Source of the DNA: Methyloceanibacter stevinii
Lineage (GTDB): Bacteria > Pseudomonadota > Alphaproteobacteria > Rhizobiales > Methyloligellaceae
Length of the DNA stretch: 64,000 nucleotides
NCBI RefSeq assembly: GCF_001723355.1
Contig: NZ_LPWE01000013.1
Location: 1 to 64,000 of the forward strand
Direction of reading: 5' to 3'
Notes under the pieces: generated by a model
Seen by the model: only the letters and a program-made list of their open reading frames with translations
Told to the model about the DNA's origin: nothing
The model's database searches: none
Translations under genes and position numbers: made by a program
Shown here: in pieces, positions 47,257 to 50,815 of the stretch
Numbering within the stretch: position 1 is the stretch's first letter
Layout: each line of letters begins with the position of its first letter

Positions 47257-47526
47257 CTAGTTGTCGTTGTAGAAGCTCTCGGCCTTGGCCACGTTGCCTT
47301 CGGGGTCCTTCATGAACTCCTCTTTGGCTTCCTGCTTGCTGAAGCAGTAGAGCTTGTCGCCGACCTTTTCGTGGACCGAGCAGTCCGTGTATTTCTTCGT
47401 GCCCTGGGTCAGGCCCCAGGCGCAGTTGTTGCCGAATTCACCGAGAGCACCGGCGGCAAGAGCAGCGGAACCGGAAAGAGCAATCACGGTGCCGGCAACC
47501 GCAGCGGCAAGAACAACCTTCTTCAT
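47257..47526 (-). CDS. Secreted YHS-like three-cysteine protein (paralogue 1)
   Basis: An 89-residue exported protein with a signal peptide ending near ALAA. The mature domain of about 60 residues contains NNCAWGL, YTDCSV, a GDKLYCFSKQ strand and FMKDPEGNVAKAESFY. The same three-Cys pattern is found in the next two genes and resembles a YHS domain, a small metal-binding fold. Function is unknown; metal (copper or iron) binding by the Cys is a plausible inference. The ATG at 47526 has an AGGA-containing site. Third and last gene of the cluster. Confidence 0.75.
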   Translation of the reverse strand: MKKVVLAAAVAGTVIALSGSAALAAGALGEFGNNCAWGLTQGTKKYTDCSVHEKVGDKLYCFSKQEAKEEFMKDPEGNVAKAESFYNDN

Positions 47527-47754
47527 AAATTTTTCCTCCAAGACTTTGCGTACGAGACTTTCGTGTATCTGGCGTATTCGGCCGATGAGACGGCATTGAA
47601 TCGTCAGAAATGCCCGCGCCGTCAATGGACAATTGCTCTGCCAACTCAAGGTCGGTCAGCAAGACGGCGGGAAGGTCCGGCGCCGCGCACCGGATCTTCC
47701 CGCGACACGTCATTGCGAACGTTGTCGGCATGCGCCTTGGAAAGGGGGCAGGGC

Positions 47755-48015
47755 CTACTGATTGTCGTCGTAGAAGCTCTGCGCCTTTTTGAGGTTCCCC
47801 TCGGTGTCCTTCATGAACAGGGTCTTGGCCGTCTCGTTGCCGAAGCAATAGGTCTTGCCGTCGATCTCCGCGTTTACCGAGCAATCGGTCTCGACCTTCT
47901 TGTCGAGCGCCAGACCCATGGCGCACATGTTGTCGTACTCGCCGGTCGCGGCGATCGCCGAGCCGGTGAAGAGAAGAACGCCTGTGATAAGGACGGGGGT
48001 CAGAAATTTCGTCAT
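47755..48015 (-). CDS. Secreted YHS-like three-cysteine protein (paralogue 2)
   Basis: An 86-residue exported protein with a signal peptide ending SAIA. The mature part repeats the cluster signature: NMCAMGL, ETDCSV, IDGKTYCFGNE, LFMKDTEGNLKKAQSFYDDN. Identity to paralogue 1 in the mature domain is high by eye, and spacing of the Cys is conserved, so this is a tandem duplication. The ATG at 48015 follows an AGGAAAC site. A 230-bp gap separates it from paralogue 1, so it may have its own promoter. Confidence 0.75.
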   Translation of the reverse strand: MTKFLTPVLITGVLLFTGSAIAATGEYDNMCAMGLALDKKVETDCSVNAEIDGKTYCFGNETAKTLFMKDTEGNLKKAQSFYDDNQ

Positions 48016-48190
48016 GGTTTCCTCCACTATTCTGTCTGTTCCATGTCTCCGCTTTCCGGGCAGGCCGAGTTGGTCCCGCCTACCGCGAGCGTTTGACAAT
48101 GTTACAGAGGGATAACGCGCCGGAAGTGTGACTGGGATCACGCAGAGACCATCACAACTTCGCGATTTCCAGCCGGAACTTTGGCAAAGA

Positions 48191-48220
48191 AAAGCCGCCC
48201 CGTTGGCATGAGGGGCGGCG
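48191..48220 (-). terminator. Terminator after the third YHS-like gene
   Basis: An 8-bp perfect stem GCCGCCCC/GGGGCGGC around a 10-base loop, followed on the minus strand by CTTTTCTTTG. It lies 40 bp after the stop of the long paralogue and suggests that the two short genes downstream are transcribed separately. Confidence 0.75.
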
Positions 48221-48260
48221 GATCGTTTCTGGCGGGCCGTCCGAAGACGGGCCCGCACCA

Positions 48261-49328
48261 CTAAAGCGTTTCGTCGAAGTCCATGCCTTCGAACGTGTAA
48301 CGGTCGACCTGGGTCCAGATGCCGTCCTCTTGGACCGGGACCTTGTGAACCTTCACATTGCCGACCTTTAGCGAGCCGTCCTTCTCGTCGACCCAGAAGT
48401 CGAGATCGTAATACTCGTCCTTGCTGCCGGGTTTGCGGAAGTCGGTGCAGGCAAAGTATTTGTCCTCGCCTTTGAGGCGGCGCACCGGCCGGTGCATCTC
48501 GACGAATTGCAGTGTCAGATCCTCGCCGGTCTTGTCATCCTTGACGGTGATGTTCCCATCTTCGTCCTTGTTCTCGAGGATGTAGTCGTGGATCGAAGCC
48601 ATCACTTCCCACGCCCGCGTGCCTTCGATGCTGCCCGGATGTTCCTGCACCGGCAGCCACCACCAGGCCACGGGGAGGCGCGTGATCATGAAGTAGCCGT
48701 CGCCGTCGCGCTTGGGGCCCTTTTGCACGCGGATGTCCTGGAGCGTGAGCTGCTGTCCTTCGGGCTTGAACCAAAAGTCGAGGGCGTATTGCTTCTTCGG
48801 CTCTTCGATATCGCTGAAGATGACATTGGCGAACCAGCCGTACCCTTCCATGCCGCGCACAATCTTGATCTCGTCGAACTTCAGATTGAGGTCGGTGTTA
48901 AGCTTGGGGTCATGGAACACGAAGGCGCCACCGTCAGAGCGTTCCTTGATGACTTCCTCGACCCGCGCATTCACGTCCTTGTCGGTGAAAACCTTCTGGC
49001 CGGAGGCCGCCTTGGCCTCCTGCTCGTCGAGAAACATCTTGGCCTTGGCGATATTGCCTTTCGGGTCCTTCAGGAACGCGGACTTCGAATTCTCGGACGA
49101 GAAGCAGTAGACCTTGCCGTCCTCGTCGGTCCAACTGACCGAGCAATCCGTCTTCACCATCTGCCCGTCGGCAAGTCCCATGGCACAGCTCTCGTCGAAC
49201 TCTGCGTCGGTGTCTCCGTGACCATCCATGGCGACCGCAATCGCCGGGAGGCCAGTTGCAAGCATGCCCGCCAAGAGCGCTCGCAATGTCAGCCGGGTAA
49301 TAAACCGTGTCGGTGTCGTGTCTGTCAT
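48261..49328 (-). CDS. Secreted protein: YHS-like domain fused to a novel C-terminal domain (paralogue 3)
   Basis: A 355-residue exported protein. Signal peptide to about residue 33. A YHS-like domain at about 42-105 keeps Cys48 (CAMGL), Cys62 (TDCSV) and Cys75 (GKVYCF) with FLKDPKGNIAKAKMF. The remaining 250 residues do not match a family I can name. They show a repeated pattern of YALDFWFKPEG and YYDLDFWVDEKDG strands and a lone Cys in FACTDFRKPGS, suggesting two related beta-rich repeats. Start at 49328 (second ATG) because AAGGA lies nine bases before it, against three for 49334. It lies between the Crp/Fnr gene and the short paralogues. Confidence 0.75.
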   Translation of the reverse strand: MTDTTPTRFITRLTLRALLAGMLATGLPAIAVAMDGHGDTDAEFDESCAMGLADGQMVKTDCSVSWTDEDGKVYCFSSENSKSAFLKDPKGNIAKAKMFLDEQEAKAASGQKVFTDKDVNARVEEVIKERSDGGAFVFHDPKLNTDLNLKFDEIKIVRGMEGYGWFANVIFSDIEEPKKQYALDFWFKPEGQQLTLQDIRVQKGPKRDGDGYFMITRLPVAWWWLPVQEHPGSIEGTRAWEVMASIHDYILENKDEDGNITVKDDKTGEDLTLQFVEMHRPVRRLKGEDKYFACTDFRKPGSKDEYYDLDFWVDEKDGSLKVGNVKVHKVPVQEDGIWTQVDRYTFEGMDFDETL

Positions 49329-49463
49329 TGTCATGAGTCCTTGGGCGTTTCGTCTCGTTGGCCACGCGTTGGTGTTTGTTCGTTTTTGAGGAGCGTTGGT
49401 CCTCAACCTCCTTAGGTCCTGATCACGGCGCTCGTCTGTGACCTGAGTTACGTTGCGCGCGCG

Positions 49464-50183
49464 TCACGCTTGCGAGCCCGATTGCAGCGTCGCGCCGTGG
49501 GAGGCGCTATCGCCCGCACCGTAAGCGGCGAGGGCGCTTCGGTTCAGAACTTCGATCGATCCGCGCGAGGAGCGCACCCAGCCCATGCGCTCCCATTCGG
49601 AGATGTAGCGGCTGATGACTTCGCGTACGCTCCCGAGATCCAGAGCCAGTTGTTGATGCGTTTTCGAAATAACGCTCGCGTCCTCCGCCTCCGCGAGCAG
49701 GCGCCGGGCCAGGCGAAGATCGAGGCTTGCGAAGGCCACCTCGTCCACCAGCATGATCAGGCTCGACAACAAGTCTCCGTAGTTCGACAGGACGTAGTTC
49801 CGGAACTTCGGCGAGGCGGACATGAGCCGATGAAACACGTCGGCGGGTATGGCTGCGAGCAAGAGGTCGGCCTGGACAGTGCTTTCGGCGGGGAAGGGGT
49901 TCCCGGCGATCAAACAGGACGTCGTCAGGACGCAGGTTTCGCCGGCCCCGACCTGGTAGAGCATGATCTCCCGGCCGGTCTCCGAGGTCTTGAAGACGCG
50001 CGTCTGCCCCTCAATGCACATGAGGTAGTTCAGGCAAAGCTGACCCTGATAGTAGGCCACGTCGCCGCGCCGCAGCCGTTGGAACTGCGTGACGTCGAAC
50101 AGGGTGTCTTTCGTCTCCGCCTCAAGCTCTGCCAGTTCCGGAAAGACGGTGAGCCAGCGTGCGATGAGAACCTGATTGGTCAT
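49464..50183 (-). CDS. Crp/Fnr family transcriptional regulator
   Basis: A 239-residue regulator. Cyclic-nucleotide-type effector domain at about 10-130 (TQFQRLRRGDVAYYQGQLCLNYLMCIEGQTRVFKTSETGREIMLYQVGAGE), dimer helix with VLSNYGDLLSSLIMLVDEVAFASLDLRLARRLL, and a helix-turn-helix at about 175-200 (HQQLALDLGSVREVISRYISEWERMGWV). It lacks the N-terminal Cys cluster of FNR, so an iron-sulfur oxygen sensor is unlikely. The ATG at 50183 fits the family start. It lies 135 bp upstream of the YHS-like cluster on the same strand, making those genes candidate targets. Confidence 0.9.
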   Translation of the reverse strand: MTNQVLIARWLTVFPELAELEAETKDTLFDVTQFQRLRRGDVAYYQGQLCLNYLMCIEGQTRVFKTSETGREIMLYQVGAGETCVLTTSCLIAGNPFPAESTVQADLLLAAIPADVFHRLMSASPKFRNYVLSNYGDLLSSLIMLVDEVAFASLDLRLARRLLAEAEDASVISKTHQQLALDLGSVREVISRYISEWERMGWVRSSRGSIEVLNRSALAAYGAGDSASHGATLQSGSQA

Positions 50184-50417: not shown

Positions 50418-50807
<390 letters not shown>

Positions 50808-50815
50808 ATGTTTAG

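Follow-up and report, generated by a model that had tools for sequence, protein, structure and literature searches.

Three tandem genes in a 64,000-nucleotide stretch of the Methyloceanibacter stevinii genome (here, the window) encode proteins with one three-cysteine domain in common, and this domain is, as judged from profile comparisons, YHS-like and placed in a lineage-specific branch near the second half of the YHS (seleno)proteins, not in the metal-type YHS. The domain and the C-terminal partner to which it is fused in the largest of the three proteins each also occur separately in PQQ methanol-oxidation loci, as the gene neighborhoods indicated. Because these relatives recur in or beside xox and SoxYZ gene sets, we consider it plausible, just short of probable, that the array proteins are periplasmic thiol/sulfur accessories of PQQ (lanthanide-type, XoxF) methanol oxidation, with the array as an inducible set. 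The locus comprises the following features.

47257 to 47526, minus strand: P0001, putatively exported single-domain three-Cys protein 1, 89 aa from its ATG (ORF, GGAGG-type site before the ATG, domain identity to P0002 and P0003)
47755 to 48015, minus strand: P0002, putatively exported single-domain three-Cys protein 2, 86 aa (ORF, domain identity, AlphaFold2 model of the mature domain)
48127 to 48142, no strand assigned: CRP-type palindrome TGTGACTGGGATCACG, upstream of gene 2
48261 to 49334, minus strand: P0003, large, putatively exported protein of 357 aa with a three-Cys domain and a duplicated C-terminal part
48264 to 48995, minus strand: C-terminal part of P0003, two repeats of a helix plus beta-sheet, with a solo form in xox operons
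49017 to 49205, minus strand: three-Cys YHS-like domain of P0003, residues about 44 to 106
49437 to 49452, no strand assigned: CRP-type palindrome TGTGACCTGAGTTACG, upstream of the large gene
49464 to 50183, minus strand: CRP/FNR-family regulator (profile matches), with four Cys invariant in its orthologues (C50, C56, C84, and C90)

The first-pass annotation had described three tandem genes with signal peptides and a shared three-Cys domain, two of them encoding single-domain proteins and one carrying a large extra domain, and this description held: the ORFs lie on the minus strand at the positions given above, the products measure 89, 86, and 357 aa, and their N-termini, judged by eye, look like Sec signals (basic start, hydrophobic stretch, A-x-A). 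The alignment likewise confirmed the Cys motif pattern in all three (C-A-x-G-L, T-D-C-S-V, [G/D]K-x-Y-C-F, and F-x-K-D-x-x-G-N) within a common domain of ~60 residues, of which 26 columns are identical throughout. P0001 and P0002 consist of the signal-like N-terminus and this domain and nothing more, and AlphaFold2 predicted the mature domain of P0002 confidently as a small alpha/beta fold (pLDDT, >90). The gene for P0003 starts at either 49334 or 49328, and the C-terminal part of the protein is an internal duplication (31% identity over 91 aa; E, 3e-8) for which, as for its solo paralogue, searches of Pfam and NCBIfam found no family. The full model of P0003 had a mean pLDDT of 64, too low for its weak NTF2/cystatin-type Foldseek matches to be used.

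We do not regard the array as a chance arrangement, because it is conserved across the genus Methyloceanibacter. Clustering of the genes in other genomes had been proposed as a check, and the array indeed recurred in nearly all sequenced relatives. The large gene was present in 15 of the 17 Methyloceanibacter genomes examined (some copies being split or cut), and in most cases it is preceded by the regulator and followed by one or two single-domain genes. Array genes numbered from one to three per genome, and the locus is flanked by katG/RNase P RNA on one side and by an ampD-like gene on the other. In the window, the RNase P RNA gene (Rfam RF00010) occupies 50419 to 50810, between katG and the regulator. 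Methyloligella keeps the order katG, single three-Cys gene, ampD (L087). Frame changes interrupt both the regulator and the large gene in the M. methanicus assembly (L046:3789-5699), and at another locus (L047), the regulator is recognizable over its first 45 residues only. Dispersed copies of the domain were found in Methyloligella, in members of two further families of the order, and in two betaproteobacterial bins, but beyond its own family the domain is rare. Among 289 genomes of the class, the matches beyond the window's own were only weak, and all lay in YHS (seleno)protein-type ORFs of 158 to 273 aa; a sample of 398 genomes from across the phylum yielded one two-Cys member, and a plasmid search gave no match.

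A relationship to YHS had been suggested for the domain, together with a profile search to examine it, and the search supported the relationship, with the C-terminal half of NF041384 (YHS [seleno]protein) as the closest relative. This model was the only NCBIfam match of the array proteins; the match spanned only positions 53 to 111 of 113 and scored 20 to 30 bits, below the cut-off of 70, and the array proteins are not full-length members of that family. In hhalign comparisons, the array domain proved homologous to the C-terminal half of YHS_seleno (probability, 98.6%; E, 9e-16; 57 columns) and, at the profile level, to canonical YHS (probability, 75%; E, 2.5e-5; 28 columns), the latter represented by a profile built from domains in related genomes. 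By these comparisons, the domain is YHS-like but falls on the selenoprotein side. Pfam YHS (PF04945; cut-off, 30.3 bits) matched P0003 at 18.3 bits and left P0001 and P0002 unmatched, so that none of the three is a member by that model, while 6 of 22 homologues matched it (best E, 1.9e-6), one Methyloligella copy scoring 29.0 bits. With the DPVCGM type of PF04945, as found in ATPase-sized proteins, the array domain has in common the superfamily, the GKxYxF...F..dP core, and the position of Cys1. The second half of NF041384 aligns across the whole array domain, and Cys1 falls at its Cys/Sec position, aligned with GGxC; however, the NF041384 proteins carry an extra first YHS half that is absent from the array proteins, and they lack the Cys2 and Cys3 that the array proteins have. 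Given that the Sec motif of the YHS seleno family is GxU, according to a review of prokaryotic selenoproteins (PMC13188914), and that this motif aligns with Cys1, Cys1 stands at the selenocysteine position of some relatives.

The remaining cysteines set the array branch apart from metal-type YHS. Canonical YHS has its cysteines in DPVCGM, FC, and GC, forming the triad C(GM)...FC...(G)C, and only Cys1 corresponds: FC and GC align with Gly/Ser and Ala/Ser in the array branch, where Cys3 precedes Phe (YCF) instead of following it (YFC). Cys2 (TDCS) and Cys3 are additions relative to canonical YHS. These differences give no support to the periplasmic copper or iron handling that the first-pass annotation had suggested as a candidate role. 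A periplasmic function in binding copper, iron, or some other metal, perhaps with delivery to a cytochrome or dehydrogenase, seems unlikely to us: three cysteines could form a site, and the domains are distant kin of DPVCGM-type YHS, which resides mostly in ORFs of 780 to 890 aa, the size of Cu-ATPases, but two of the three canonical cysteines are missing and the third Cys is displaced, Asp replaces Cys1 in 10 of 67 members while Cys2 and Cys3 persist, the Met of CAM is not conserved, and the array is not adjoined by metal exporter or chaperone genes. Cys2 and Cys3 were present together in all 67 distinct sequences that have either of them, never singly, and Cys1 varied independently of both. 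This co-occurrence suggests that Cys2 and Cys3 act as a pair, probably a disulfide, and that Cys1 is a separate site; the hairpin register predicted by AlphaFold2 for P0002 does not by itself place Cys2 opposite Cys3. In a second subfamily, Asp-Pro or Asp-Ala replaces the first Cys motif and only Cys2 and Cys3 are kept (L088:5052, L089, L090, L096, L100, L112, and L223:5678), sometimes in tandem, e.g., at L090.

The C-terminal part of P0003 has a solo homologue in the window's own genome (G000:C11:375710-376543), inside a xox cluster with two xoxF-type genes (TIGR03075), a xoxJ-type binding protein (TIGR03871), a xoxG-like cytochrome, TIGR03863, TIGR03866, and a formate-dehydrogenase-like gene. 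The name XoxF was given here from sequence and gene company, TIGR03075 being a broader methanol/ethanol family model. In 11 Methyloceanibacter genomes (a few with a contig end or split ORF), this solo gene lies downstream of xoxJ and ahead of xoxG; this count, like the other neighborhood counts from related genomes, represents few evolutionary events. In a xox operon from another family of the order, the duplicated-domain gene occurs twice in tandem, again between xoxJ and xoxG (L267:7070-8688), and the two copies have diverged differently (60% and 41% identity). In genome G020, the slot between xoxJ and the xoxG-like gene holds a two-Cys relative of the array domain, beginning 2 bp downstream of xoxJ. 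By its gene order, the xoxJ-solo gene-xoxG cluster would correspond to the GL4_1360-1370 region of M. caenitepidi Gela4, where expression of xoxF3 and xoxF4, and their response to co-culture, have been reported (PMC6417678). The xoxJ-type binding protein of G000:C11 is fused to C-terminal ankyrin repeats (L086:4808-6706; also at L224 and L267), with TIGR03871 at residues 90 to 323 and ankyrin-type matches at 380 to 627.

In 9 Methyloceanibacter and 2 Methyloligella genomes (11 in total), single-domain genes were convergent with a gene for a TIGR04557 SoxYZ-like carrier, and at those loci a TIGR04559 hydrolase usually comes next after the carrier; in another family (L221), a fused gene lies about 4 kb from a SoxYZ-like gene. 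In a review of the Pseudomonas ped cluster, SoxYZ/SoxH genes are associated with quinoprotein dehydrogenases whose active sites contain adjacent cysteines, and the roles put forward for these genes are disulfide formation, an aid to redox state or maturation, cofactor stabilization, or keeping sulfur species away from PQQ (PMC12997753). The XoxF/XoxJ/XoxG clusters and the SoxYZ/SoxH "quinoprotein relay" (TIGR04557 and TIGR04559) encode relatives of both array parts, although a three-Cys or duplicated-domain protein is not described for these systems in the literature searched. Conserved neighborhoods with PQQ dehydrogenase or relay genes were seen for the homologues, from which all these links come; the array locus has none, and in the window's own genome it is not beside xox or SoxYZ genes. 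Since most genomes of the class that have SoxYZ relay genes carry no three-Cys gene nearby, the three-Cys protein would be at most an optional accessory. As a special case of our preferred explanation, the proteins might work with the SoxYZ-like carrier to trap sulfite, thiosulfate, or persulfide that would otherwise form PQQ adducts. The adjacency of the carrier and the MBL hydrolase would fit this, as would the shielding of PQQ from sulfur nucleophiles given as an alternative role of SoxYZ/SoxH genes (PMC12997753), but the array itself is without sulfur-oxidation genes and sulfur binding is putative, and we find this special case improbable.

The Crp/Fnr regulator reported directly upstream of the large gene on the same strand was recovered there by its domains (HTH_Crp_2, E, 1.8e-12; cNMP_binding, E, 8.4e-9), and it travels with the array. 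The regulator lacks the N-terminal Cys cluster of FNR, having cysteines at 50, 56, 84, and 90 instead, and the putative operator is of the TGTGA-N6-TCACA type, not TTGAT-N4-ATCAA, so that low-oxygen control is not indicated. The recognition helix reads RExxxR, which is of the CRP type and fits TGTGA. E. coli CRP binds cAMP through an Arg of which this protein shows no apparent counterpart, so the signal would more likely be redox or sulfur than cAMP. The palindrome, close to TGTGAC-N4-GTCACA and at about -90 to -130 from array genes, precedes two paralogous genes: 11 of 13 loci have it ahead of the large gene and 8 of 9 ahead of gene 2, but only 1 of 8 ahead of gene 1. The threshold was at least 8 of 10 matches, which 5.5% of random 300-bp pieces also reach, and the loci are related, so that the counts are not independent. 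The two loci without an adjacent regulator (L054 and L058) are also without the palindrome, which is absent as well from the xox- and SoxYZ-linked copies. Family f197 shows the same combination at L222, where a three-Cys gene is accompanied by a regulator of 52% identity and a perfect palindrome lies about 94 bp ahead of the start. A genome-wide scan gave only 3 to 11 sites per genome at two mismatches and 0 to 7 in controls, so we claim no wider regulon. A perfect TGTGACCCACGTCACA also occurs 135 bp ahead of the start of a betaproteobacterial single-domain gene (L059:5806-5821), whose 12-kb locus contains no related regulator gene.

With its four invariant cysteines, the regulator would also suit a general redox or peroxide stress array close to KatG, in which the proteins serve as periplasmic thiol buffers or sensors and the links to methanol are coincidental. 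Most Methyloceanibacter genomes, and Methyloligella, keep KatG, RNase P RNA, and the array as neighbors, and the f197 regulator-gene pair has no xox genes nearby. Such a role would, however, leave unexplained both the repeated adjacency to the SoxYZ relay and the companion domain in xox operons, and we consider it rather unlikely.

For a role in methanol oxidation, we infer a disulfide, a reactive Cys1, partners, and a signal from what was directly observed, namely, the homology, the Cys pattern, the neighborhoods, and the co-occurrence of regulator and operator. Cys2 and Cys3 would form the pair, probably a disulfide, and Cys1 would be the reactive thiol. The SoxYZ-like carrier might be the partner of the array proteins in an exchange of disulfide or sulfane sulfur, or these proteins might instead maintain the proper thiol state of the dehydrogenase or its cytochrome. 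The four-Cys CRP-type regulator probably activates both the large gene and gene 2 through the palindrome lying about 100 bp ahead of each, and in P0003 the thiol domain is fused to the duplicated domain found elsewhere as a solo protein between XoxJ and XoxG. In its most specific form, the proposal is a periplasmic thiol/sulfur relay of lanthanide-dependent methanol oxidation, in which the SoxYZ-like carrier and XoxF/XoxG are connected by YHS-like Cys proteins that transfer disulfides or sulfane sulfur and have their own Cys-rich CRP-type regulator, the XoxJ-XoxG duplicated domain being a further component; this we offer tentatively, as possible but doubtful.

We found no expression or biochemical data on the array, and the literature searched on YHS with methylotrophy or lanthanides held no description of such proteins. 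By sequence, the array branch belongs to a known superfamily; we found no paper on a link of this branch to lanthanide-type methanol oxidation. The helper genes of the lanthanide-dependent methanol dehydrogenase (maturation, redox upkeep, and the role of SoxYZ/SoxH) are a known gap, for which the neighborhoods name two more candidate helper families, with M. methanicus, M. caenitepidi, and Methyloligella as named isolates in which to study them. The hypothesis of a reactive Cys1 and a paired Cys2-Cys3 may also bear on the second half of the YHS selenoproteins, of whose function we found no account in the literature.

Among solved structures, the best sequence match was to the YHS-like repeats of adenylate kinase 9 from cilia (PDB 9fqr and 9d2f), with a whole-chain E of 2.5e-9 and the pattern GEF..C.V.LA....DCS matched; the Foldseek match was weak, and the protein differs in being a eukaryotic multi-domain kinase whose single repeats each reach an E of 0.026 or worse. 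Sequence matches to HINT1 and FAP206 were rejected as being at chance level. Foldseek matched P0002 to toluene monooxygenase at an E of >1, which would fit the C-terminal YHS domain of that enzyme. Several repeats of adenylate kinase 9 (9fqr_Xf and 9d2f_A) resemble the bacterial domain, and one of them keeps both the C.V.LA and the DCS motifs.
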